Source: Bacteroides fragilis NCTC 9343
GTDB lineage: Bacteria; Bacteroidota; Bacteroidia; Bacteroidales; Bacteroidaceae
Reading direction: 5' to 3'
Length of the DNA stretch: 64,000 nt
Assembly: GCF_000025985.1 (NCBI RefSeq)
Contig: NC_003228.3
Location: 496,001-560,000, forward strand
Part shown: in pieces, positions 2,534 through 50,521 of the stretch
Layout of the letters: each line of letters opens with the position of its first letter
How positions within the stretch are numbered: the first letter of the stretch is position 1
Translations under genes and position numbers: made by a program
Notes under the pieces: model-generated
Database searches by the model: none
What the model was told of the DNA's origin: nothing
What the model saw: only the letters and a program-made list of their open reading frames with translations

Positions 2534-3709
2534 GATAAAGTGAGTATCGTGCTATTATTGGTATTAATTTGTGGATGTTCTTCGATGAATCAGAAGATGA
2601 ATGATGGAATTGAAAGAATACCAATAGATGTGCATAATGTGTCTCGAGATGCTTCATTATTTATCGATAAAATAGAACTTGTACCTTTAGAGACAAATGA
2701 TTCATCCTTATTACATAAATATAGAAAAGTCATGTATGATAAAGAAACGGATGTTTATGCTGTTTATACTCGTGAGCAAGTCATATTTACATTCTCGGGT
2801 AATGGGGCTTTTATTAGTAATTCGAAAAAAATGCAAGGGCAGGGACCTGATGAATATCATATGGCAATAGACGTAAAATTTAATCCTTATTTACAAGGAC
2901 TTGATTTGTTAAATCCCTATGGTACAATATATACATATAGTTTGGATTTTAAACTTTTAGCAAAGAGAAAAATAAAGCCGGAATTTCCGATTGATCATCT
3001 TATAGCTTTCAATACTGAAGAATATATTTTTACTTATCCTTCTTTATGGACAGATCAAGAGGTAGCATTTGCTAATTTGAGAACACAGCAGATATATAAT
3101 GCTAACTATAACGGTACGATATCCAGTGGGAATTCGATGGATAAGGAATGCTTTTATAAAATAGGAGATAATTTTTATTTTATTCCTCCCGGCATTAATT
3201 ATTATTTCTATCGGATAGATACTAAAGAGATGAAATTTACTCCGATGATATACCTTGATTTTGGTGATTCGGAGATAAAGGAAGAGGGGTTACCGGGGCG
3301 TGCGGCGGGTAAAAGAACTGATTTAGATGAAGAGAGGTTGAGGGTTGTAAAAGAAATGCAGGATAGATCTCAATTTTTGAAGCATTCTAACAATCACTTT
3401 GTTCCCTTAATTAAATTTTTTAATGAAGACTATGTTTATGTCTATTTTGTAAAGTCTACTCAAGGTTTCGGAAGTAACTTTATTTATAATCGGAAAACGA
3501 AAGAGAGTTTTTTGACTAATGAAGGGAAGCCTTTTATTATGAATTGTTGTTTCGCTATAGTCGATAATATATTGCTTTCCATACATCAACCTGAATATGT
3601 GTCCAGACTCGTTGATCAGCGCTTCATGTCTTCGGAAGAAATACGTAAGATGGAGCAAATTAAGGAAGATGATAATCCTGTTATTATAAAATATTATTTG
3701 AAAAGATAA
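2534..3709 (+). CDS. 6-bladed beta-propeller lipoprotein
   Basis: A lipoprotein of 391 residues when started at the ATG at 2534; the frame is open from 2507, but the nearer ATG places the signal sequence (VSIVLLLVLICGC) at the very N-terminus. The mature part has the features of the Bacteroides 6-bladed beta-propeller family: an N-terminal LVPLETNDSSLL stretch, a GQGPDEYH segment that typifies blade 1, and repeated short beta-strand motifs. Proteins of this type are surface or periplasmic and usually of unknown ligand. It sits directly after a decayed paralogue. Confidence 0.75.
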   Translation, partial: DKVSIVLLLVLICGCSSMNQKMNDGIERIPIDVHNVSRDASLFIDKIELVPLETNDSSLLHKYRKVMYDKETDVYAVYTREQVIFTFSGNGAFISNSKKMQGQGPDEYHMAIDVKFNPYLQGLDLLNPYGTIYTYSLDFKLLAKRKIKPEFPIDHLIAFNTEEYIFTYPSLWTDQEVAFANLRTQQIYNANYNGTISSGNSMDKECFYKIGDNFYFIPPGINYYFYRIDTKEMKFTPMIYLDFGDSEIKEEGLPGRAAGKRTDLDEERLRVVKEMQDRSQFLKHSNNHFVPLIKFFNEDYVYVYFVKSTQGFGSNFIYNRKTKESFLTNEGKPFIMNCCFAIVDNILLSIHQPEYVSRLVDQRFMSSEEIRKMEQIKEDDNPVIIKYYLKR

Positions 3710-11273: not shown

Positions 11274-12470
11274 ATGAAAGTTTTAGTATTGAACTGTGGT
11301 AGTTCATCTATCAAATACAAGCTGTTCGATATGGACAGCAAAGAAGTGATTGCCCAGGGTGGTATCGAAAAGATCGGTTTGAAAGATTCATTCCTGAAAT
11401 TGACTTTGCCGAATGGTGAAAAGAAAATTTTGGAGAAGGATATCCCCGAACATACCGTAGGTGTGGAATTTATCTTGAATACACTGGTAAGTCCCGAATA
11501 TGGTGCTATCCAATCACTCGAAGAAATCAATGCCGTAGGTCATCGTATGGTGCACGGAGGTGAACGCTTCAGTAAATCAGTACTGCTGACTAAGGAAGTG
11601 CTTGAGGCTTTTGCTGCCTGCAATGATCTGGCACCTCTCCACAATCCTGCTAACCTAAAAGGAGTTGACGCCATTACAGCTATTCTGCCGAATGTTCCGC
11701 AAATCGGTGTATTCGATACTGCATTCCACCAGACTATGCCGGAGCATGCATATCTGTATGCTATTCCTTACGAATTGTACAAGAAGTATGGTGTGCGCCG
11801 TTATGGTTTCCACGGAACTTCTCACCGTTATGTTTCTCAGCGCGTATGCGAATACCTGGGAATTAAACCGGAAGGTTTGAAACTGATTACTTGCCATATC
11901 GGTAATGGTGGTTCGATTGCTGCTATCAAAGATGGTAAGTGTATCGATACTTCTATGGGACTGACACCGTTGGAAGGATTGATGATGGGTACTCGTTCCG
12001 GTGATATCGATGCCGGAGCTGTTACATTCATCATGGATAAAGAGGGCCTGACTACTACGGGTATCTCTAACCTGCTGAATAAGAAAAGTGGTGTAGCCGG
12101 TATGATGAACGGCTCAAGTGATATGCGTGACTTGGAAGCTGCCGTTGCCAAAGGTGATCCGCAGGCTATCCTGACTGAACAGATGTACTTCTATCGCATT
12201 AAGAAATATATTGGTGCGTATGCCGCTGCTTTGGGTGGGGTCGATGTTATTCTGTTCACAGGTGGTGTTGGTGAAAATCAGGCGACTTGCCGTGCCGGTG
12301 TTTGTGAAGGACTGGAATTCCTGGGTGTGAAACTCGATCCGGAAAAGAACAAGGTTCGTGGTGAAGAGGCTATTATCTCAACTGATGATTCAAGAGTGAA
12401 GGTAGTAGTGATCCCGACTGATGAAGAATTGCTGATTGCTTCTGATACAATGGCTATCTTGGATAAATAA
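11274..12470 (+). CDS. ackA: Acetate kinase
   Basis: 398 residues, normal for the family. It makes ATP and acetate from acetyl phosphate and ADP. Acetate/butyrate kinase signatures are visible: VLNCGSSSIKYKLF at residues 3-16 and TSMGLTPLEGLMMGTRSGD at about 224-242; HGTSHRYVSQR and HIGNGGSIAAI mark the active site. Second gene of the pta-ackA operon, closed by a strong terminator at 12493-12537. Confidence 0.97.
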   Translation: MKVLVLNCGSSSIKYKLFDMDSKEVIAQGGIEKIGLKDSFLKLTLPNGEKKILEKDIPEHTVGVEFILNTLVSPEYGAIQSLEEINAVGHRMVHGGERFSKSVLLTKEVLEAFAACNDLAPLHNPANLKGVDAITAILPNVPQIGVFDTAFHQTMPEHAYLYAIPYELYKKYGVRRYGFHGTSHRYVSQRVCEYLGIKPEGLKLITCHIGNGGSIAAIKDGKCIDTSMGLTPLEGLMMGTRSGDIDAGAVTFIMDKEGLTTTGISNLLNKKSGVAGMMNGSSDMRDLEAAVAKGDPQAILTEQMYFYRIKKYIGAYAAALGGVDVILFTGGVGENQATCRAGVCEGLEFLGVKLDPEKNKVRGEEAIISTDDSRVKVVVIPTDEELLIASDTMAILDK

Positions 12471-12492
12471 AGGTTGATAAGTAATTATAGAT

Positions 12493-12537
12493 AAAAAGCC
12501 GGAGGCGGAGATCTACTCTCTGTTTTCCGGCTTTTTT
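12493..12537 (+). terminator. Rho-independent terminator after ackA
   Basis: AAAAAGCCGGA (12493-12503) pairs with TCCGGCTTTTT (12526-12536), followed by T residues. Confidence 0.85.
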
Positions 12538-12647
12538 ATATGAGGCAGGTTAGAGATGGCAGTTTGGGTTGAAGGGTAATTGATGCTCGGTGATCTATTT
12601 AACAGAATATTCATATCTCTTTCTCCTTTTCTTCTTTTTAAAATTTT

Positions 12648-12655
12648 TATCTTTG
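12648..12655 (+). promoter_or_regulatory. Promoter -7 element of the alkaline phosphatase gene
   Basis: TATCTTTG on the plus strand, 38 bases before the ATG at 12693. Confidence 0.6.
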
Positions 12656-12692
12656 CTATCACTAACTCGAATAAACTTAAAATAGTACAAGA

Positions 12693-14093
12693 ATGAAACG
12701 ACTTTTTTATTTCTTTCTTTTTGTCTGTGTGGCAGTTATAGCCAATGCTCAGGCAAAATATGTTTTCTATTTCATTGGTGATGGAATGGGTGTCAATCAA
12801 GTGAATGGTACGGAAATGTATCGTGCCGAAATCCAGAAGGGCCGCATTGGTGTAGAGCCTTTGCTTTTTACACAGTTCCCGGTGGGGACAATGGCTACTA
12901 CTTTCTCTGCCACTAATTCCGTGACTGATTCTTCGGCTGCGGGAACTGCTCTTTCCACCGGCGAAAAGACTTATAATGGTTCCATTGGGATGGATGATCA
13001 GAAGAATCCTTTGCAGACAGTTGCCGAGAAAGCAAAGAAAGCCGGTAAAAGGGTGGGAGTTACTACCAGTGTCAGTGTCGATCATGCTACTCCTGCTGCT
13101 TTCTACGCACATCAGCCGGATCGGAATATGTATTATGAAATAGCTACCGATCTTCCTAAAGCAGGTTTTGATTTTTATGCCGGTGCCGGTTTCCTGAAAC
13201 CAACCACTACTTATGATAAGAAAGAAGCTCCGAGCATTTTCCCGATGTTTGAAGAAGCCGGTTACACCATTGCTCGTGGGTATAACGATTATAAAGCCAA
13301 AGCTGCTGCGGCAGGTAAGATGATATTGATTCAAGAAGAAGGTGCCGATACGGGCTCTTTGCCTTATGCTATCGATAGTAAAGAAGGAGACCTGACTCTG
13401 GCACAGATTACAGAAAGCGCCATTGACTTTTTGACTAAAGGCAAAAACAAAGGTTTCTTTCTGATGGTAGAAGGGGGTAAGATAGACTGGGCTTGTCACG
13501 GGAATGATGCCGCTACGGTGTTCCACGAAGTGGCGGATATGGATAATGCCATCAAAGTTGCTTATGAGTTTTACAAGAAACACCCGAAAGAAACTTTGAT
13601 TGTGGTAACTGCCGACCATGAAACAGGAGGTATCGCATTGGGAACCGGAAAGTATGCCTTGAATCTCAAAGCACTTGAGAACCAGAAAGCATCTGCCGAA
13701 GTACTCTCTAAAAAGATCAGTGATTTGCGCAAAGCTAAGAACAATCATGTAGCTTGGGAAGACATTAAGAATCTGCTGTCCGAAGAGATGGGCTTCTGGT
13801 CTGTACTTCCTATCACCTGGGCGCAAGAGAAGAAACTGCGTGACGAATATGAAAAGTCATTTGTAAGAAATAAAGTGGAATTTGCCGAAAGTATGTATGC
13901 CAAGACTGAGCCGATGGCTGCTAAAGCCAAAGAAGTGATGGATCAAATCGCTATGGTAGGCTGGACAAGCGGCGGACATTCTGCAGGATATGTGCCGGTA
14001 TTTGCTATCGGTGCCGGTTCCGATCTGTTCATCGGTAAAATGGATAATACGGAGATACCGAAACGCATCGCAAAAGCCGGTGGGTATAAATAA
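12693..14093 (+). CDS. phoA: Alkaline phosphatase
   Basis: 466 residues with a signal peptide (ending VIANAQA), so periplasmic. It hydrolyses phosphate monoesters. The metal and nucleophile motifs are visible: FIGDGMGVNQVNG at about residue 28, TDSSAAGTALSTGEKT at about 90 with the nucleophilic Ser, KIDWACHGND at about 265, VVTADHETGG at about 305, and WTSGGHSAGYVPVFA near the C-terminus. No phosphate-control box can be recognised. It stands alone between the ackA terminator and the next promoter. Confidence 0.92.
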   Translation: MKRLFYFFLFVCVAVIANAQAKYVFYFIGDGMGVNQVNGTEMYRAEIQKGRIGVEPLLFTQFPVGTMATTFSATNSVTDSSAAGTALSTGEKTYNGSIGMDDQKNPLQTVAEKAKKAGKRVGVTTSVSVDHATPAAFYAHQPDRNMYYEIATDLPKAGFDFYAGAGFLKPTTTYDKKEAPSIFPMFEEAGYTIARGYNDYKAKAAAAGKMILIQEEGADTGSLPYAIDSKEGDLTLAQITESAIDFLTKGKNKGFFLMVEGGKIDWACHGNDAATVFHEVADMDNAIKVAYEFYKKHPKETLIVVTADHETGGIALGTGKYALNLKALENQKASAEVLSKKISDLRKAKNNHVAWEDIKNLLSEEMGFWSVLPITWAQEKKLRDEYEKSFVRNKVEFAESMYAKTEPMAAKAKEVMDQIAMVGWTSGGHSAGYVPVFAIGAGSDLFIGKMDNTEIPKRIAKAGGYK

Positions 14094-14139
14094 CCCGTTA
14101 ATTTATCCTCAATATTCTCTATCTTTCAAAGAATTTCTT

Positions 14140-14147
14140 TAGCTTTG
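14140..14147 (+). promoter_or_regulatory. Promoter -7 element of the DUF59 gene
   Basis: TAGCTTTG. The predicted transcript start (about 14154) falls after the ATG at 14152, which favours the ATG at 14176 as the start. Confidence 0.45.
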
Positions 14148-14175
14148 TCTTATGAATTTTCAAAGAAATACAGAT

Positions 14176-14487
14176 ATGACTAAGTTTGAAATAGAAGAAA
14201 AGATAGTAGATATGCTCAAAACCGTATTCGATCCCGAAATTCCGGTAAACGTATACGATCTGGGACTGATTTACAAAATAGATGTTTCCGAGGATGGAGA
14301 AGTATCTATTGATATGACCTTGACTGCTCCTAACTGTCCTGCGGCAGATTTCATTATGGAAGATGTACGTCAGAAAGTAGAGTCGATTGACGGGGTAAAC
14401 TCTGCCACAATCAATCTGGTTTTTGAGCCGGAGTGGGATAAAGATATGATGAGCGAAGAGGCTAAGTTGGAATTGGGCTTTTTGTAA
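14176..14487 (+). CDS. DUF59/MIP18-family iron-sulfur assembly factor
   Basis: 103 residues from the ATG at 14176 (frame open from 14152). Family hallmarks: DPEIPVNVYDLGLIY at about residues 15-29 and TLTAPNCPAADFIMED at about 50-65, whose Cys is the conserved SufT/MIP18 cysteine. These proteins assist Fe-S cluster assembly or transfer. No suf genes are next to it; the lpxH-like gene follows 45 bases later and may be co-transcribed. Confidence 0.88.
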   Translation: MTKFEIEEKIVDMLKTVFDPEIPVNVYDLGLIYKIDVSEDGEVSIDMTLTAPNCPAADFIMEDVRQKVESIDGVNSATINLVFEPEWDKDMMSEEAKLELGFL

Positions 14488-14532
14488 CCATTGTCAGTTT
14501 ACCTCTATTCTTAAACGATCCATTCTTACAGT

Positions 14533-15297
14533 ATGAAAAACGTATATTTCCTTTCTGATGCCCACTTGGGGTCACGTGCCATAGAGCATGGACGTACGCA
14601 GGAGCGGCGCCTGGTCAATTTTCTCGACAGCATTAAGCACAAAGCTGCCGCAGTATATCTGCTGGGCGATATGTTCGACTTTTGGTATGAGTTCCGTTTG
14701 GTTGTTCCCAAAGGTTATACCCGTTTTTTAGGGAAACTCTCCGAACTGACTGATATGGGAGTAGAGGTGCATTTCTTTACGGGAAATCATGATATCTGGT
14801 GCGGCGACTATCTGACTAAGGAGTGTGGGGTGACGATTCATCGTGAACCGGTTACCACTGAGATTTATGGAAAAGAGTTCTACCTGGCACATGGTGACGG
14901 GCTGGGAGATCCGGATAAAAAGTTCAAGTTGCTACGTACTATGTTCCATAGTCGTACGTTACAGACTTTGTTCTCTGCGATTCATCCCCGATGGAGCATT
15001 GACTTGGGATTGAATTGGGCCAAACACAGCCGGCTGAAGCGTGAGGGTGGAAAAGAACCGGATTATATGGGAGAAAATAAAGAGTTTTTGGTGCTTTATA
15101 CCAAGGAATACTTGAAAAGTCATCCTAATATTAACTTCTTTATTTACGGTCATCGCCATATCGAACTTGACCTGATGTTGAGTGCTACGGCGCGAATACT
15201 TATCTTGGGGGACTGGATCAACTTCTTCTCTTATGCTGTGTTCGATGGTGAGAACCTGTTTCTTGAGAACTATATCGAAGGAGAAACCCAACTTTAA
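14533..15297 (+). CDS. lpxH: LpxH-type UDP-2,3-diacylglucosamine diphosphatase
   Basis: 254 residues, a calcineurin-like metallophosphoesterase. Metal-binding motifs in order: FLSDAHLGS (residues 5-13), GDMFDFW (about 44), GNHDIW (about 87), HGDGLGDPD (about 119), YGHRH (about 205). LpxH cleaves UDP-2,3-diacylglucosamine to lipid X in lipid A synthesis at the inner membrane face. The length and the DMFDFW motif fit the LpxH group, but the exact subfamily (LpxH or LpxH2) is uncertain. Confidence 0.85.
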   Translation: MKNVYFLSDAHLGSRAIEHGRTQERRLVNFLDSIKHKAAAVYLLGDMFDFWYEFRLVVPKGYTRFLGKLSELTDMGVEVHFFTGNHDIWCGDYLTKECGVTIHREPVTTEIYGKEFYLAHGDGLGDPDKKFKLLRTMFHSRTLQTLFSAIHPRWSIDLGLNWAKHSRLKREGGKEPDYMGENKEFLVLYTKEYLKSHPNINFFIYGHRHIELDLMLSATARILILGDWINFFSYAVFDGENLFLENYIEGETQL

Positions 15298-41973: not shown

Positions 41974-42046
41974 GCGGAAATAGCTCAGTTGGTAGAGCAT
42001 AACCTTGCCAAGGTTAGGGTCGCGAGTTCGAGTCTCGTTTTCCGCT
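41974..42046 (+). tRNA. tRNA-Gly (GCC)
   Basis: Cloverleaf: acceptor GCGGAAA/TTTCCGC, D-arm GCTCAGTTGGTAGAGC, anticodon loop TTGCCAA with GCC at 42007-42009, T-arm with GTTCGAG. CCA is not encoded. First of two tRNAs in one transcript. Confidence 0.95.
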
Positions 42047-43741
42047 CTCTTTGAAAGGATGCTCGAATGGTGGAATGGTAGACACGAAGGACTTAAAATC
42101 CTTTGGCCATTGCGGCTGTGCGGGTTCAAGTCCCGCTTCGAGTACTTGAAGGGACGAACGGTGATTTTCACTGTTCGTCTCTCTCTTTTTATCCCTATTA
42201 TTCGTTGGAAATGAGTAGTTTAGCATAAAGAATTGATTGACTGTTTTAGGTTCAATATGCTCGTTATTTTTGTCGTAGATAAATCCGTCAGGAAATACCA
42301 ATTTCTGCAATCTCCTTCTTCCTTCTAATCCTTGTAATTCCCATAAATTGAATAAGTTAGAACGCATTGCGAACGCATAATCAATGAATTTATCAAGGTT
42401 CAATATTTCTGTGTTCACCTTTGAATATTCTACCTGTAAACCTCTGATTTCTGCCTCTAATCTCGTCATTACCTTTACGCAAATCTCTTGTTTCTTTGTA
42501 TCGGAACAAAGTGCATAATTGGTTTCGACTTGCTCCAGTTCTTTTTCCTTTGCTTTGATATTGGATTTGATGGACTGGGCTCTTTCTTTATTTTCTTTAT
42601 TCATGTTTTCAAAGGTGATGGTTAGTTGCAGTTTTAAAAGTTCTGAGACTTTATCAGATAGTACATACTTGTTTGCTTCTTCCTCAAAGGCTTCATGTAC
42701 GTTTTTGGTTGAACTGTTATACTTGCATCCTTTGCGGCTGCAAACATAATAACCAATATCGGTACGCCCGAATTTCTTTCGCATCTTAGTTGATATACTT
42801 GCGGATAGATTATTGCCACAACAGGGACATTTGATGCTGCCTAGTAATGGTGCATACTCCTTATCTATCTTTTGTTCATATCCACTATGGTTTTTGGATA
42901 ACTCTCCATTTACTTTCAAGAAAATTTCTTTTGGTATCAATGGAGGATGATTTCCTTGTACAATATCCCCTTGCAAGAATTTATGTGCCATATAGCCACA
43001 ATAAAAAGGGTTCTTGAACAGTTCTGATAGCTTCTGTTTACAGATATGGAAACCTTCTGCTGCCAGTCTATGCCTGATTTCTTCGTTAGATAGTTTGTTA
43101 TTGGCTTTCCAAAGGAATGCTTTTCTTATTAGTTTCCCTTCTTCATTGATGGTTATAATCTGCTCTTTCTTTGTTGTCTTTTGGTCATATCCTCTTGGAG
43201 CTTTACCAATCCATCTACCTTTTAGTAATGCTTTTACGCTGTTTTCAACAGTTGTTGCTCTCTTTTCGTCATTTTGAAACCTTGCATTTGCAAGTTCCAT
43301 GAGTTGCATATACTTTCCGACTGGTGTACGTGGGTCATAATTTGATGTTGCAGATACTACGTATGCTCCTCTAGCTTCTACCTCTTCAATAATGGTTGTA
43401 CTTCCCGTTCTACTGAAACGGGAGGTACTGAACACTATGACGGTTTTTATTACTTGGCTACTGCCTTTTTTATTACTCTGCTTGATGAAGGCTAACATAC
43501 GGCTAAATTCTTTGCGTTCCTTATCGCTCTTTGCTGATTCGTATGTTCCTCCAAACTCACCGACAATATTGTATGAGTGCATGTTTGCGTACTCTCTGCA
43601 TTTGTCTATTTGCACCTCTAGACTTTGACCGTCTACTTGTTCACTGGAACTAACACGGGTATAGATGATGGCATTGCCGCCTACTTGTTCTTTTTGCTGT
43701 TTTTTGCCTTTAGCAAAGCCTTTTAATTCAAAATTCTCCAT
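42014..43741 (-). CDS. Large serine recombinase
   Basis: 575 residues from the ATG at 43741 (open to 43771). Resolvase domain with IIYTRVSSSEQ (catalytic Ser about residue 30) and VIVFSTSRFSRTG; recombinase domain from about 170 (GKAPRGYD); zinc ribbon CPCCGNN...CSRKGC at about 305-345; coiled-coil at about 380-450. This is the integrase class of many Bacteroides elements. The last 55 or so residues are not element-coded: they are the antisense of the tRNA terminator, all of tRNA-Leu and half of tRNA-Gly (VLEAGLEPAQPQ, KRDSNSRP). Its native stop is therefore missing in the integrated state. Confidence 0.9.
   Translation of the reverse strand: MENFELKGFAKGKKQQKEQVGGNAIIYTRVSSSEQVDGQSLEVQIDKCREYANMHSYNIVGEFGGTYESAKSDKERKEFSRMLAFIKQSNKKGSSQVIKTVIVFSTSRFSRTGSTTIIEEVEARGAYVVSATSNYDPRTPVGKYMQLMELANARFQNDEKRATTVENSVKALLKGRWIGKAPRGYDQKTTKKEQIITINEEGKLIRKAFLWKANNKLSNEEIRHRLAAEGFHICKQKLSELFKNPFYCGYMAHKFLQGDIVQGNHPPLIPKEIFLKVNGELSKNHSGYEQKIDKEYAPLLGSIKCPCCGNNLSASISTKMRKKFGRTDIGYYVCSRKGCKYNSSTKNVHEAFEEEANKYVLSDKVSELLKLQLTITFENMNKENKERAQSIKSNIKAKEKELEQVETNYALCSDTKKQEICVKVMTRLEAEIRGLQVEYSKVNTEILNLDKFIDYAFAMRSNLFNLWELQGLEGRRRLQKLVFPDGFIYDKNNEHIEPKTVNQFFMLNYSFPTNNRDKKRETNSENHRSSLQVLEAGLEPAQPQWPKDFKSFVSTIPPFEHPFKESGKRDSNSRP
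42061..42144 (+). tRNA. tRNA-Leu (TAA)
   Basis: 84 bases with the long variable arm of a class II tRNA. Acceptor GCTCGAA pairs with TTCGAGT (one G-U), anticodon loop CTTAAAA with TAA at 42094-42096, T-arm GGTTCAAGTCC. CCA not encoded. The integrated element begins just downstream. Confidence 0.93.
42153..42190 (+). terminator. Terminator of the tRNA unit
   Basis: GACGAACGGTGA (42153-42164) pairs with TCACTGTTCGTC (42168-42179), followed by TCTCTCTTTTT. The element junction lies at or just past it. Confidence 0.85.
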
Positions 43742-43889
43742 ATTGTGTATCTTTTTTGTTATATGCCTCATAGCTCAAAAGTGAAAAAGCATATAGTGTA
43801 TCAATTAATTCTTTTGCATCCTCTTGGGATATTCCTTTGAAGTTGCGGTTCTCTTTGATGGTATCTAAGTTTAAATACTGTGCATTCAT
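43728..43889 (-). CDS. Small protein upstream of the serine recombinase
   Basis: 53 residues, MNAQYLNLDTIKENRNFKG at the start, then a predicted helix (SQEDAKELIDTLYAFSLLSY) and a short tail. It overlaps the start of the recombinase frame by 14 bases, which suggests coupled translation. The codon use and the amphipathic helix look genuine. I do not recognise the family; a directionality factor or a regulator of the recombinase is a guess from position. Confidence 0.55.
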   Translation of the reverse strand: MNAQYLNLDTIKENRNFKGISQEDAKELIDTLYAFSLLSYEAYNKKDTQYGEF

Positions 43890-46011: not shown

Positions 46012-46038
46012 ATATTCACTTCTGTAACTTTTGAATAT
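46012..46038. repeat. Palindromic site A (ATATTCAC-N11-TTGAATAT)
   Basis: 27 bases, arms of 8 with one mismatch, 11-base spacer. It starts one base after the stop of the 45708 gene and 81 bases before the tyrosine recombinase gene. Same geometry as sites B (48578-48604) and C (50310-50336). Confidence 0.55.
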
Positions 46039-46118
46039 GAATTGATTATCAGTGATTTAATGACAAATAGGTTTGTGTTAGATTCAAAAACGATAGATTT
46101 CCATTAAAAGAGAATATT

Positions 46119-46706
46119 ATGAGTTTAAAGAACAGTTATGTAACAAGTGATTATATAGAGTGGGACACAATGCTTTCGTTAGTCAGAAAGTTGTACCGTG
46201 ATAAGGAATACCGTTTTTCTCTATTGATTGGCTGTGGCTCTTTCTTCGGATTACGTATATCAGATATTCTCGCTCTTACGTGGTCTATGTTATTAAATGA
46301 TGAAAAGTTTGTTATCATAGAAAAGAAAACGGGAAAAAGACGTGAAATAAAAATCAATTCAAATTTTCAAAAACACATTGCTGATTGTTATACGGTTTTA
46401 GGTGTAACAGATAAAAATGAGAAGTGCTTCATTAGTCGCAAAAAGACGGTGTATTCTACACAAAGAATCAATGTGTTATTCAAGTCAATAAAAAACCAAT
46501 ATGGATTGAAGGTGGAACACTTTTCTACTCATTCAATGCGAAAAACATTTGGGCGCAAAGTTGTTGAGGCTGCTGGAGAAAATTCTGAATTTGCTCTCAT
46601 CAAACTATCAGAATTGTTTAATCATGCTGATGTAATGACTACACGTAGGTATTTGGGATTGCGGACAGAGGAATTACTTGAAACGTATGATATGTTGTCT
46701 TTTTAA
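46119..46706 (+). CDS. Short tyrosine recombinase (FimB-sized)
   Basis: 195 residues, only the catalytic domain, like FimB/FimE invertases. Catalytic residues: Arg in FFGLRISDILALTW (about 47), Lys in EKKTGKRREIKI (about 70), HSMRKTFG (His-x-x-Arg, about 138-141), NHADVMTTRRYLG (His and Tyr nucleophile, about 168-180). No N-terminal core-binding domain is present. It lies between site A and a large folded region. It could invert, insert or excise local DNA; a role in moving the whole element is less likely, as the serine recombinase covers that. Confidence 0.85.
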   Translation: MSLKNSYVTSDYIEWDTMLSLVRKLYRDKEYRFSLLIGCGSFFGLRISDILALTWSMLLNDEKFVIIEKKTGKRREIKINSNFQKHIADCYTVLGVTDKNEKCFISRKKTVYSTQRINVLFKSIKNQYGLKVEHFSTHSMRKTFGRKVVEAAGENSEFALIKLSELFNHADVMTTRRYLGLRTEELLETYDMLSF

Positions 46707-46771
46707 TCAGAGAATAGTTCTTTTACATTAAAATAAGCCGTTCACAGATAACGTTTTCGCTGAACTTTTAC

Positions 46772-46779
46772 TATTTTTG
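46772..46779 (+). promoter_or_regulatory. -7 element of the candidate structured RNA
   Basis: TATTTTTG on the plus strand; predicted transcript start about 46786. No clear -33 word. Confidence 0.4.
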
Positions 46780-46783
46780 TACC

Positions 46784-47010
46784 GTTGCAAATAGCAACTA
46801 CATAATTTAGGAAGCGTTTAGCTATTCTGCATTAGTGAATCTCGACAACTCACCATGTGGCAGGAATAACGGAAAACGTTCTCCTTAGGTTTGTTATATA
46901 TGTTTCCAACAATATATACTGCCTAAGGTGTGAGCGACTTTTTCTTATTCGTCACAGGGCAGTCGAGAGCCTACTAATGGGATAAGTTAAGTTGGCTCAC
47001 ACTTCTTTTT
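46784..47010 (+). ncRNA. Candidate structured RNA or folded DNA site
   Basis: A dense set of complementary helices: a 5' hairpin GTTGC/GCAAC (46784-46798); P1 CATTAGT (46830-46836) with ACTAATG (46973-46979); P2 TCTCGAC (46840-46846) with GTCGAGA (46962-46968); P3 TGTGGC+GAATAA (46856-46869) with TTATTC+GTCACA (46945-46956); P4 CCTTAGG with CCTAAGG (46883-46889, 46922-46928); P5 TATATAT (46895-46901) with 46912-46918. CTCAC (46849-46853) can pair with GTGAG (46930-46934) as a pseudoknot. A rival helix GTGTGAGC (46928-46935) with GCTCACAC (46995-47002) is followed by TTCTTTTT. I do not recognise a known class. Confidence 0.6.
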
Positions 47011-47060
47011 ATAAACCTAAAAAACATACTGATAGAGCCAAAGGTGTTTATTTTAATATG

Positions 47061-48479
47061 ATGAAACACATTGTTAATCTTTGCTTTTTTTTTAGTCTGT
47101 TATCTTTGAACATGTATGCAGATAATTGGGATTTTGTGGATATGGGAGTTCGTGCCGATAATGGAGATATTCTTTATTGGTCAACAGGAGATATGGTCTT
47201 GTTACAAAACGGAGAAATTAAAATTGCTGACTATGGAGAATTTGGCAGTCAGTTTGGTTGGGGGGATATAACAGGAAAAGTAACGGGGGATAATTTGAAT
47301 GATTATGGTGGAGTCAATTCTCTTAAAGAAATATCAGGTAATAAAGATTATGATATTGTAAGAGCGAAATTAGGAAAACCATATCGATTACCTACATATA
47401 CAGAAATAGACCGATTATTTAAGAATTGCTCAGAGGAGTTTGTGAAAATTCCACGTAAATTGAATAGTGTGGATGAAAATGGAGTGCCATTATGGTTGCA
47501 AGGTCAATGGATGTGGCAGCATGTTATCCATACTCAGAAAAGAACGTTTGGAGGATGGCTTTCTGTTAAGATAGATGGTTTATTAGTAAATGTGCTTTCA
47601 TCTGAAGGTAAGGTCTTATTTGAAGGGTTGTATAGTTATTCTAACGGTGTATTGAAATTTTGGGATTTTACTCTTTATTTGGATATGGATAGGAAGCTGA
47701 TAAAAGATAATAGGGGTGAGTATTTTAAAAAAGTTTCAAGTCAATCCAACTCAATGGAAATTTGTGGTTACATGCTTACAAGCAAAATAAACGGTAATAA
47801 ATTATTTTTTCCTGTATCACATTCATATAGTGCAGTAAATACGGGAAGTGGTGTTTTAATTATGAACAATAACCAAAAGCTAAGTTATTGGACAGGAACA
47901 TTATACAATGACGATTTTCGATATGCTGCATCGCTGATGTTTGCATCTGATGGGTGGGGGATAGGGTATCAAAAAAGAAGTTCGCACTTTCGTATAAAAG
48001 CAGTCAAGGGTGGGAATGGTTCTGTAAATTCATTACAATCAATATCCACAAAAATAAAAAGTAATGATAACAAGGTAATATCTTCCGAAATTAATAGAAA
48101 GGAGGGGCATTTGGAACAATCAGTTACAGAATATAGCTTCTCAATCTCCTATTCTTTTGGAGGGAGACAATCGGTTGCAAAGCCTCAATATTCGGGAGGT
48201 GAATCAGGTTTACCCCGTTTCTTTATGAAGAACGTAAAGTACCCTACTTTAGCACAAGAAAGTAATATTAAAGGGAAAGTTGTAGTACAATTTCTTGTAA
48301 ACGAGGATGGTAGTTTATCTAATTTTAAAATTGTTCAGAGTGTACATCAATCCCTTGATAACGAAGTTTTGCGTGTACTTATGTTATTACCTGAATTTAT
48401 TCCTGCATCAGATGAAAAAGGTAATCCTATCAAAGCGTATGCCACAATTTCTTTTACCTTCGAAACAGGTTATCTGTAA
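47061..48479 (+). CDS. Exported protein with C-terminal TonB domain
   Basis: 472 residues from the ATG at 47061, giving a signal peptide (FFFSLLSLNMYA). The middle resembles a formylglycine-type or Fibrobacter-major-paralogue domain (YRLPTYTEIDRLF; LSYWTGTLYND), by pattern only. The last 85 residues are a TonB C-terminal domain (YPTLAQESNIKGKVVVQF, VNEDGSLSNFKIV). There is no membrane anchor at the N-terminus as in classical TonB. It follows the candidate RNA, which forms its leader. A cargo gene of the element; function unknown. Confidence 0.65.
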   Translation: MKHIVNLCFFFSLLSLNMYADNWDFVDMGVRADNGDILYWSTGDMVLLQNGEIKIADYGEFGSQFGWGDITGKVTGDNLNDYGGVNSLKEISGNKDYDIVRAKLGKPYRLPTYTEIDRLFKNCSEEFVKIPRKLNSVDENGVPLWLQGQWMWQHVIHTQKRTFGGWLSVKIDGLLVNVLSSEGKVLFEGLYSYSNGVLKFWDFTLYLDMDRKLIKDNRGEYFKKVSSQSNSMEICGYMLTSKINGNKLFFPVSHSYSAVNTGSGVLIMNNNQKLSYWTGTLYNDDFRYAASLMFASDGWGIGYQKRSSHFRIKAVKGGNGSVNSLQSISTKIKSNDNKVISSEINRKEGHLEQSVTEYSFSISYSFGGRQSVAKPQYSGGESGLPRFFMKNVKYPTLAQESNIKGKVVVQFLVNEDGSLSNFKIVQSVHQSLDNEVLRVLMLLPEFIPASDEKGNPIKAYATISFTFETGYL

Positions 48480-48541
48480 TGGAGTTATTGATACAACTAA
48501 ACAATCAAGTAGTAAAGACTTCAAGAAGAAGTGAGAGTGTT

Positions 48542-48570
48542 AAGCGGTGGTATTTTCCACCGCTTGTTTA
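48542..48570. terminator. Hairpin after the TonB-domain gene
   Basis: AAGCGGTGG (48542-48550) pairs with CCACCGCTT (48557-48565); the tail GTTTATAAG is only partly T-rich. Confidence 0.55.
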
Positions 48571-48577
48571 TAAGATA

Positions 48578-48604
48578 ATATTCACAAATCTTGGGAGTGA
48601 ATAT
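48578..48604. repeat. Palindromic site B (ATATTCAC-N11-GTGAATAT)
   Basis: Perfect 8-bp arms with an 11-base spacer; with flanking bases the arms extend to 10. It overlaps the stop codon of the GIY-YIG gene and lies between two convergent genes, where an operator is unlikely. Confidence 0.6.
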
Positions 48605-49950
48605 TATGAGTTATTTACCTCATTCACAATCTCATTTACTATTTTTCTAATGGTAGAATATTGAGCTTTAAAAAATTCACGTTTATCATTTAGCCTATAT
48701 TTTTCCAATTTTTGATGTATAAGTTTTTCGGCTAAAACACAATCAACAGTCTCAAATTCTTCAGCAACTAAATATTTATCTGGAACACCAGTACTATATA
48801 ATTCTTTAGCTCTAGTCTCAGTTTCTCTTCTAGTTAATCCTACTTTAAAAATATCTTTGTCATGAGAAGCATTTCTCATGATATATATATATCCTTTGTT
48901 TTTAGAGTTTATCAACGGTTTTAGATTATTCGTTATTTTAATAGGTTCATTGGTTACTTCATGCCATGTTTTAAGAACACTCACCCAAGTTTTTCCATGA
49001 ATTGTGTTACCATTTTTGTCTTCACCTATTTCGTTTGATTTAAGTATCTTCCAAAAACCGTCAGATTCAAGTTTAAAACTTTCATTGTATGTTATAGTTT
49101 GAGAAGCATAATTTTCTCTCTGTTTTTTTAAGCACCAAACGTCTCTTTTTCTTAGTTCATAAGATGGCGGAACAAGTTTGTCTCTTTTAAAAATCTTTGG
49201 TTTATTAGGTTCAGTACCTAAAATAGTTGTATGTTCTTCTAATATTAAATTTTCTTCATAATTTTCTATATATGATAAAAGATGGATACAAAGTCTTCCT
49301 ACCTCAAATAAAGGAACATAATTTTTTGTTTTCTCTTTTATTTCATTATAGATTTGTTCCCACTGTTCAGATGGAAACTTATTATCTCGATACATAAAAG
49401 CTTCTAAGTCATCGGTTGTTGTATCAAAAGCGTTACCCAAATCTTTTTGTACATACTTGGCTTCTAATTCTAAAGTTTCAATATTAAAACGAAGGAGAAT
49501 AAAAGTTTTCCAATATTCTTTATTTTCCCAAAAACGAATTTTTTCCATTTTGCTCTCTGGAGAAGGTTGTATTTCTTGCTTACTTGGGAAGCGCATTAAT
49601 TCAGTAATCTTGGGTATATTTACATCAGAGTTTTTCTCTCCAGCGAGAATTATCACAGATATTTCATTTACTCTTTTAATAATTGAAACCCCTCCGATTA
49701 TATATTTAATATCTTTGTTCTCTAATGCAAAATCAATATCAATCGGATTATTTGTTACATTGAAATTATATATAGTATTATCTTCAAATGCTTTAACTGA
49801 CTCGTCTAAATTGGGACAATCTGTGGATGTTACATAATCTATAAAGTCAACAAAATCAATCAAAAAATCTTCTTCTTCAAGCAATAAAAAAGTATTTAAT
49901 TCAGCTTGATAACTGAAAAAAGCTTCCATAACATTAAATGAGGATGGCAT
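48604..49950 (-). CDS. GIY-YIG (T5orf172-type) protein, downstream part of a frameshifted gene
   Basis: 448 residues in this frame. The C-terminal 100 residues carry a T5orf172/MUG113-type GIY-YIG nuclease domain: GYIYIMRNASHDKDIFKVGL (about 354-373), RAKELYSTGVPDKY, then EKLIHQKLEKYR and KREFF. The N-terminal 350 residues are unknown. The frame opens at 49950, but coding continues upstream without a start to a TAG near 50075; the true N-terminus lies in another frame at 50052-50210, joined by one added A in an A7 run (50068-50074). Intact length would be about 535 residues. Such nucleases occur in defence and homing contexts. Confidence 0.75.
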   Translation of the reverse strand: MPSSFNVMEAFFSYQAELNTFLLLEEEDFLIDFVDFIDYVTSTDCPNLDESVKAFEDNTIYNFNVTNNPIDIDFALENKDIKYIIGGVSIIKRVNEISVIILAGEKNSDVNIPKITELMRFPSKQEIQPSPESKMEKIRFWENKEYWKTFILLRFNIETLELEAKYVQKDLGNAFDTTTDDLEAFMYRDNKFPSEQWEQIYNEIKEKTKNYVPLFEVGRLCIHLLSYIENYEENLILEEHTTILGTEPNKPKIFKRDKLVPPSYELRKRDVWCLKKQRENYASQTITYNESFKLESDGFWKILKSNEIGEDKNGNTIHGKTWVSVLKTWHEVTNEPIKITNNLKPLINSKNKGYIYIMRNASHDKDIFKVGLTRRETETRAKELYSTGVPDKYLVAEEFETVDCVLAEKLIHQKLEKYRLNDKREFFKAQYSTIRKIVNEIVNEVNNS

Positions 49951-50051
49951 TGTTCTTAAGCCAGTATTCCAAGCTCTTGAGTTAAATTCTTCTAAATAAT
50001 ATCTTAGGTCTTGGTCTATATAAAGTCCAGCACCATTTTTTTGTTGAGCTT

Positions 50052-50210
50052 CTAAAATAGCAATAGCTTTTTTTGTCTAAGAGAGAAATCTTTTCTATGT
50101 TCATCTGTTTGATGTCTATCCAATGACTTTAGGATTTTGTCATATCTTGGATTATCTTTTGTGGGTAATGCTATCATATTAAGAAAGCTCATTCTGTCAC
50201 TTCGCGTCAT
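50052..50210 (-). pseudogene. N-terminal segment of the GIY-YIG gene, out of frame
   Basis: ATG at 50210 opens 52 codons (MTRSDRMSFLNMIALPTKDN at the start) that stop at 50052. One extra A in the run at 50068-50074 joins KDFSLRQKK to AIAILEAQQKNGAGLYID and so to the long frame. Confidence 0.65.
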
Positions 50211-50521
50211 AGTTAATTAATATTAGAAGTTAATTCAATGCTAATATAGGTTTTTTTTTGAAGATTCCTCGTCAAAAGAACTGCAACTTGAAAATAAAAT
50301 GATTATGTGATATTCACAAAGAATATAAGTGAATATTGTGATTTGATGTATGTTGTTGATTAATAATGTTTTATGCTGTTTGTGGAAAATGGAGGTAAAA
50401 TTGATATTCACTTTTATCCAATAAGCTATCTTTTTGAATATAAGTCGATGGCTATCAAAGATGATTTCTTGTAGCCATACAATATAATTCATATCTTTAC
50501 GGCAGTCTAAATGCTGTTAAT
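50211..50521. other. Divergent intergenic region
   Basis: 311 bases between the GIY-YIG gene and the 50522 gene. It contains site C and the extra half-sites, and a TATCTTTA word near 50493 that could be the -7 element of the rightward gene. No convincing gene. Confidence 0.45.
50310..50336. repeat. Palindromic site C (ATATTCAC-N11-GTGAATAT)
   Basis: Perfect arms, 11-base spacer, identical to site B in both arms and in the first three spacer bases. A related pair of half-sites (ATATTCAC 50404-50411 and TTGAATAT 50434-50441) lies 68 bases to the right with a 22-base spacer. Confidence 0.6.

Follow-up and report, generated by a model that had tools for sequence, protein, structure and literature searches.

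Three 27-bp palindromes, called A, B and C, lie around a small tyrosine recombinase gene and a GIY-YIG gene in Bacteroides fragilis NCTC 9343, and the question that this locus raises is what they are for. The window, by which we mean the whole stretch analyzed, comprises 64,000 nucleotides (NC_003228.3, positions 496,001 to 560,000, forward strand). An initial annotation made from the letters alone had proposed that the recombinase moves gene units between these sites. We consider it probable that A, B and C are recombination cores of the adjacent recombinase, which consists of a catalytic domain only, and that together they form a site-specific cassette system. This reading builds on the sites and their spacing, on core and accessory (D) arms that changed together in one clade, on an A-to-B unit (unit 1) found in two unrelated contexts, and on alternative gene packets at the same border. 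The features that matter first are as follows.

46012..46038, + strand: core site A, ATATTCAC-N11-TTGAATAT, one mismatch, 107 bp 5' of the recombinase ATG; left edge of the putative mobile unit
46119..46706, + strand: tyrosine recombinase, 195 aa, catalytic domain only
48578..48604, + strand: core site B, exact, without the N22 accessory pair described below; joins unit 1 and unit 2 (B to C)
50310..50336, + strand: core site C, exact; the terminal core

The cores are rare and accompany the recombinase

Searched with up to two mismatches, the core motif ATATTCAC-N11-GTGAATAT matches three places in the window; shuffled sequence gives 0.04 on average, and 0 of 100 shuffles reach three. This confirms the palindromes at the positions first annotated, A with its single mismatch. 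In the whole genome (5,241,700 bases, two contigs), a core with at most one mismatch occurs in four places: A, B, C, and one further match, with one mismatch, within a 325-codon open frame. The core arms of B and C are 8-11 bp long.

Our genome sample holds one genome per species; genomes and loci are labeled G and L. An exact core is present in 6 of 301 family genomes, and a reversed control motif in 0 of 301. The initial annotation suggested searching Bacteroides for the motif near recombinase homologs, and in the four genomes of the window's genus that have an exact core (G000, G135, G257, G280), every exact site is within 4.6 kb of a homologous recombinase. The remaining two of the six (L008, L009) belong to another genus and have one site each. 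A narrower pattern, ATATTCACAAA-N8-GTGAATAT, has five exact matches among 158 genus genomes, all five adjoining a homologous recombinase; at one or two mismatches, some matches also lie away from any such recombinase. A core also precedes most homologs. The view that the sites travel with the recombinase is supported. In 10 of the 12 other loci whose recombinase is at least 67.8% identical, the mismatched arm of A, TTGAATAT, is found as well (exceptions L013, L015).

A core look-alike with a spacer rich in CC and GATGATGG recurs away from these recombinases (G304:C1:65735, G308:C10:390243, G322:C1:95671, G333:C1:2806030, G346:C6:116693). These look-alikes are possibly coding sequence.

A recombinase with a catalytic domain only

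The only domain match of the recombinase is PF00589 (Phage_integrase), at residues 44-182 of 195. NCBIfam matches are far under their cut-offs (one is titled site-specific tyrosine recombinase/integron integrase), and the only solved protein matched by sequence is XerA, weakly (E 8.5e-05). The protein is of FimB size. In an alignment of 49 recombinase sequences, some of which are one locus fetched twice, R46, K70, K73, H138, R141, H169, and Y178 are conserved in at least 48 of 49. We take R46, K70/K73, H138, R141, H169, and Y178 to fill the catalytic roles; with the set R, K, H, R, H/W, Y, the protein is predicted to be an active tyrosine recombinase.

Homologs occur in 44 of 158 genus genomes at E 1e-20 and in 12 of 393 order genomes at E 1e-55, the window's own genome counted in both, as well as in 11 named contigs. 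We read 56 stretches around homologous recombinase genes. In most relatives the palindromic core lies at -107/-108 or about -120 from the ATG, and in order-level loci at -98 to -131. We rejected an origin from a phage or plasmid: tblastn identities were 27-41% among the matches listed, and the viral contigs held no relative, site or junction pattern.

An accessory pair makes A and C composite sites

Beyond the cores, the locus has a second inverted pair, D, which the initial annotation overlooked. It consists of the core's own arms around an N22 spacer, and it stands 3' of A and 3' of C and is absent after B.

46080..46117, + strand: accessory pair D beside A, AGATTCAA-N22-GAGAATAT, ending 1 bp before the recombinase ATG
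50404..50441, + strand: accessory pair D beside C, ATATTCAC-N22-TTGAATAT, 94 bp from the start of core C

A and C are thus composite (core plus D), with A+D and C+D in the same, direct orientation, and B is simple. Upstream of the recombinase ATG in 61 distinct loci, a core is found in 52, D in 51, and both in 48 (within cost 3), compared with 72, 15, and 6, respectively, of 2440 random windows drawn from the same loci. The arm cost scale (consensus 0, allowed alternatives 0.5, others 1) was hand-made and fixed after viewing the first loci, and the controls use the same scale; the 61 loci exclude the hits L020 and L021 (64 and 51 residues) and the duplicate fetches L011, L012, L014, L017, and L018. 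D is mostly offset by 68-70 or about 80 bp from the start of this upstream core (89-90 in two order-level loci) and ends just 5' of the ATG. The loci contain 57 core+D composites against 0 in one shuffle round; this total counts five loci double and includes three composites on the opposite strand, probably by-products.

Of 13 loci whose recombinase identity is at least 67.8%, 12 have a second, terminal composite, with D 94-99 bp from the core start; three of these loci have a near-identical right end, and the partial hits L020 and L021 are omitted from the count. The layout first described, A followed by recombinase and cargo and then a terminal core, recurs in relatives with other genes. In the L060-L063 clade, the right arm of the core and the left arm of D are both changed, to the GTGAAAGT/ACTTTCAC type, and the left core arm is unchanged. 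This joint change fits a single protein that would read both core and D, the left half-site having been left by host DNA.

Locus L013 has a lone exact core without D at 3426-3452, which is 544 bp 5' of the recombinase and behind a 773-aa gene and another copy of the RNA described below.

The unit between A and B occurs in unrelated contexts

In the window, each of the two units contains a cargo gene.

47058..48479, + strand: unit 1 cargo, protein with a TonB C-terminal domain; secreted type, judged by eye from the N-terminus
48604..49950, - strand: unit 2 cargo, GIY-YIG (T5orf172) protein, 448 aa

Boundaries on both sides are seen in L052 and L053, loci of two species. They share a single 3,627-bp block, 90.2% identical, that runs from -107 to +3515, which is from A's first base to B. 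On both sides the flanks are unrelated: the flanking kilobases reach 61% in forced alignment versus 87.5% for the unit's first kilobase. The block encodes the recombinase and a patatin/Omp85 protein; two more genes look, by eye, like those for a lipoprotein and a small HTH protein. To this extent the movable units of the initial annotation hold, in that A-B is a transferable unit with its edges at cores.

The left flank that L053 and L068 have in common (85%, 731 bp) continues only until 12 bp inside A, after which L068 carries a different recombinase of the same family. L057 and L016 are 97.7% identical from -111 to +954 (core A, recombinase, and RNA), diverge right of +954, and differ left of A too, over the 59 bases available in L016. 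The window and L054 have left flank, A, recombinase, and RNA in common and carry different cargo. Among 88 locus pairs with at least 85% identity, which are not independent of one another, shared sequence began on the left at the core in 47 pairs and upstream of it in 41; in no pair did it begin between core and gene.

A second packet at the same border

L052 and L053 also differ to the right of unit 1. In L052, unit 1 directly abuts D arms. L053 has another core with D arms beyond B, and the gene between the two cores encodes an 841-aa helicase. Compared by their right flanks, the last site of L052 is similar to C of L053 (z 4.7) and not to B of L053 (z -0.6). The window repeats the L053 plan with the GIY-YIG gene as the second packet. 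Packets may have been inserted sequentially at a fixed receiving site, which both the window and the L052/L053 pair would fit, with two loci in all that have a second packet.

In these two cases, the cargo resembles phage-defense genes. Nearly the whole length of the L053 helicase (12452-14977) matches the PADLOC phage-defense candidate PDC-S28 (E 1.6e-300). In the GIY-YIG protein, the C-terminal domain alone matches the PADLOC models PD-Lambda-1 and PDC-S57. At E 1e-25 we found no relative of the GIY-YIG packet in 157 other genus genomes; in phages, 0 of 79 records cover 80% of the protein, and among the matches listed, only the C-terminal domain is matched. At 49950-50212 of the window, 5' of the GIY-YIG gene, there is an open frame, seemingly in another frame, beside seven consecutive A on the coding strand (by eye). 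The GIY-YIG gene may be frameshifted or start internally.

The structured RNA and the surrounding element

Between the recombinase and its cargo is a structured RNA, and a serine integrase gene lies to the left of the sites.

46772..47011, + strand: promoter box TATTTTTG plus structured leader RNA, its 3' stem terminator-like; multi-copy in Bacteroides; no Rfam match
42014..43771, - strand: large serine integrase of the surrounding integrated element; overlaps tRNA-Leu

The RNA stretch starts with the Bacteroides -7 box TAnnTTTG, a consensus quoted in an excerpt of PMC4747536. Its folding is stronger than that of shuffled sequence (z -5.3). Across 12 copies, 14 of 25 pairs of a hand-specified structure have changed on both sides (score 0.515 vs 0.233 shuffled), and two of the helices cross, forming a pseudoknot. 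The initial annotation had included the RNA in the recombinase unit, but it is not specific to it: with a model of 16 copies and a threshold of E 0.01, 23 of 25 genus genomes have it in 2-17 copies each, and most of these copies are not near this recombinase, which makes it a multi-copy RNA of the genus. The units of L052 and L053 contain no match to the RNA, so the site system can do without it.

Closely similar RNA copies have two stem segments that are hypervariable yet still complementary (by eye). Directly 5' of the RNA, in the usual place of the tyrosine recombinase, 6 of 20 RNA loci read have a small serine recombinase of about 211 aa (L128, L131, L135, L136, L137, L138); the genes after the RNA in these loci are mostly lipoprotein-like (by eye). 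An inverted repeat across the promoter, examined in 20 loci, is 13 bp long in six closely related loci among the distant relatives (0 of 100 shuffles each), 11 bp in L055 (0 of 100), and 9 bp in the window (6 of 100).

An AAA protein also lies left of the sites with the serine integrase. Since this integrase overlaps tRNA-Leu and is accompanied by the AAA protein, the whole locus appears to be within an integrated mobilizable-type element.

A model of cassette exchange and its alternatives

We suggest that the recombinase would bind the arms ATATTCAC and GTGAATAT around the 11-bp spacer, where cleavage and strand exchange would occur, and that it would bind the same arms at N22 in D, one helical turn wider and probably uncut. 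Unit 1 (recombinase, promoter-RNA, and surface-protein cargo) would have entered a core in a mobilizable element, presumably by way of a circular intermediate. Unit 2, the single GIY-YIG gene, would then have entered between unit 1 and the D-bearing receiving site. On this reading, A-B would be a recombinase cassette, B-C a second cassette, and C+D the receiving site. A wider version, which we put forward tentatively and would not yet back over its alternatives, is that of an independently evolved integron-like platform, in which a composite receiving site collects single-gene packets, including phage-defense genes, in mobilizable elements of gut Bacteroidales, and the recombinase sits in its own first packet.

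Several observations weigh against the cassette model. The initial annotation worried about unlike spacers, and rightly: the spacers of A, B, and C differ from one another here and likewise in relatives, and because they differ mid-site, classical exchange between identical overlaps is impossible as the sites stand. The other part of the movable-unit claim, rearranged DNA, did not appear: pattern scans, which covered viral contigs only, found no excised junction, circle or empty target. The second packet is present in two loci only, the window and L053, and they are the sole evidence for unit 2. The right flank of B in the window resembles that of C (z 5.4) and the other four terminal flanks poorly (z -0.1 to 2.1), and the terminal flank of L055 is a poor match to those of L052 and L053 (z 0.6 and 1.5). 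In L013 (78% identity), core A and D are missing from their usual position. Homology is also lost at the stop codon of the recombinase and where the RNA ends, both away from any core, so part of the cargo exchange uses another route than the cores.

The more distant relatives add to these points. At 51-62% identity, they have a single composite just 5' of the recombinase and no flanked cargo in the stretches read. No second composite rises above chance in these relatives or in L060-L063 (66%), in stretches of at most 19 kb each, and no further exact core was found beside the recombinases of distant relatives in 20 genomes. With a single composite and no flanked cargo there, cassette exchange may have been derived from an older system of the resolution type.

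The same relatives bring up the alternative that survives best, a multimer-resolution system of integrative and conjugative or mobilizable elements, with a res-like core and accessory pair and with cargo moved mainly by homologous recombination between elements. Their one composite just 5' of the recombinase is what such a system would have, this position in front of the RNA is taken by a small serine recombinase in 6 of the 20 other RNA loci read, and the cargo homology that breaks at the RNA end fits it too. However, resolution leaves unexplained the second composite with its own spacing (94-99 vs 68-70) in 12 of 13 close relatives, as well as a unit whose homology stops at both cores amid unrelated flanks. 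On balance we think this account unlikely, and we regard a resolution system partly converted to a cassette system as a serious rival.

It is very improbable that the palindromes are operators, bound by a regulator or by the recombinase solely to control its own promoter. D does lie directly 5' of the recombinase gene, up to 1 bp from the ATG. However, B lies between convergent gene ends, a point that the initial annotation was right to count against this role; the sites are the edges of shared DNA; and the five exact ATATTCACAAA-type sites are all beside such a recombinase.

An invertible switch, which the catalytic-domain-only recombinase and the 13-bp inverted repeat that encloses the promoter box and the beginning of the RNA (L069, L074, L077, L079, L080, L081) would suit, is the least credible explanation, since A+D and C+D have the same orientation and the 13-bp repeat, a property of one clade, is absent from the window and 13 further loci tested, the window's 9 bp being reached by 6 of 100 shuffles.

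If the cassette model is correct, the Bacteroidales would have a site-specific pathway dedicated to exchanging single genes between mobile elements, candidate defense genes among them. It would also illustrate the path from a resolvase-like tyrosine recombinase, with its res-like composite site, to a cassette recombinase, and an N11 core followed by an N22 pair would be a simple marker for finding such cargo.

Comparison with known systems

The open-access titles and abstract openings listed contained no description of the N11/N22 site pair or of this recombinase group; most of the subscription literature is outside that search. We compared the locus with five known systems. B. fragilis has tyrosine invertases such as Tsr19, according to an excerpt of PMC4747536. 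The Tsr/FimB layout has opposed sites around a promoter, and the composites here are in direct orientation. CTnDOT and its integrase IntDOT likewise belong to Bacteroides mobile DNA, and the tolerance of unlike spacers would be needed here too. Unlike the window recombinase, in which the catalytic domain alone is matched in 195 aa, IntDOT has an arm-binding domain, so we did not assign the recombinase to the IntDOT group as defined in the excerpted text of PMC8138268.

The rAID arrays are another Bacteroidales system, in which a tyrosine recombinase is followed by low-GC variable genes, as here. The same genome contains a rAID-type immunity array at 2.03 Mb, with a 376-aa recombinase and SUKH genes (L146, G000:C1:2030800-2046000), which we take to be the published rAID reference locus, judging from its SUKH and immunity genes and the strain identity. 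Unlike the window, this array has immunity-type cargo, no significant match to the RNA of the window locus (best E 0.81), and an unrelated recombinase (E 0.5 against that of the window). We therefore rejected membership of the window in rAID. Both kinds of array in one genome, with unrelated recombinases, set a boundary on rAID. SUKH genes occur in 10 of 31 genus genomes, and the places listed are on another contig than the homologous recombinases or at least 100 kb from them; the SUKH regions L101-L103 contain no window-type recombinase. In an excerpt of PMC12247911, rAID is defined by a tyrosine recombinase, co-oriented low-GC genes, and conserved intergenic motifs. The distant relatives fit this definition in part, with a GC content of 31-39% after the recombinase in 12 loci, and a SUKH domain was found in 0 of the 40 cargo proteins scanned, of 71 listed.

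Resolution systems share part of the site architecture. TnpI of Tn4430 and the serine resolvases have res-type sites, a core with accessory sites, by the recombinase gene. Like the TnpI site (IRS) and res, the locus has core and accessory sites just 5' of the recombinase gene (48 of 61 loci), both built on the same arms. Resolution systems have one site per element, and one is what we found in distant relatives; in contrast, two composites of different spacing flank cargo in 12 of 13 loci of the window's group, and the accessory pair is inverted, with N22.

Integrons share several features with the locus: gene packets edged by recombinase sites, additional binding sites near the core of the receiving site, a simple site on the later packet, and single-gene packets. 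In contrast to integrons, the recombinase here is a 195-aa protein that lacks a core-binding domain and is encoded in the first packet, and the accessory sites form an inverted N22 pair. With PF00589 the only match, the recombinase is not of the IntI type, which is marked by a core-binding domain and an integrase-specific insertion, and B and C, as 27-bp double-stranded palindromic cores, are not attC sites, which are long imperfect palindromes that fold single-stranded. Altogether, by analogy, the system would in its working come closest to an integron based on a composite site of the res type.

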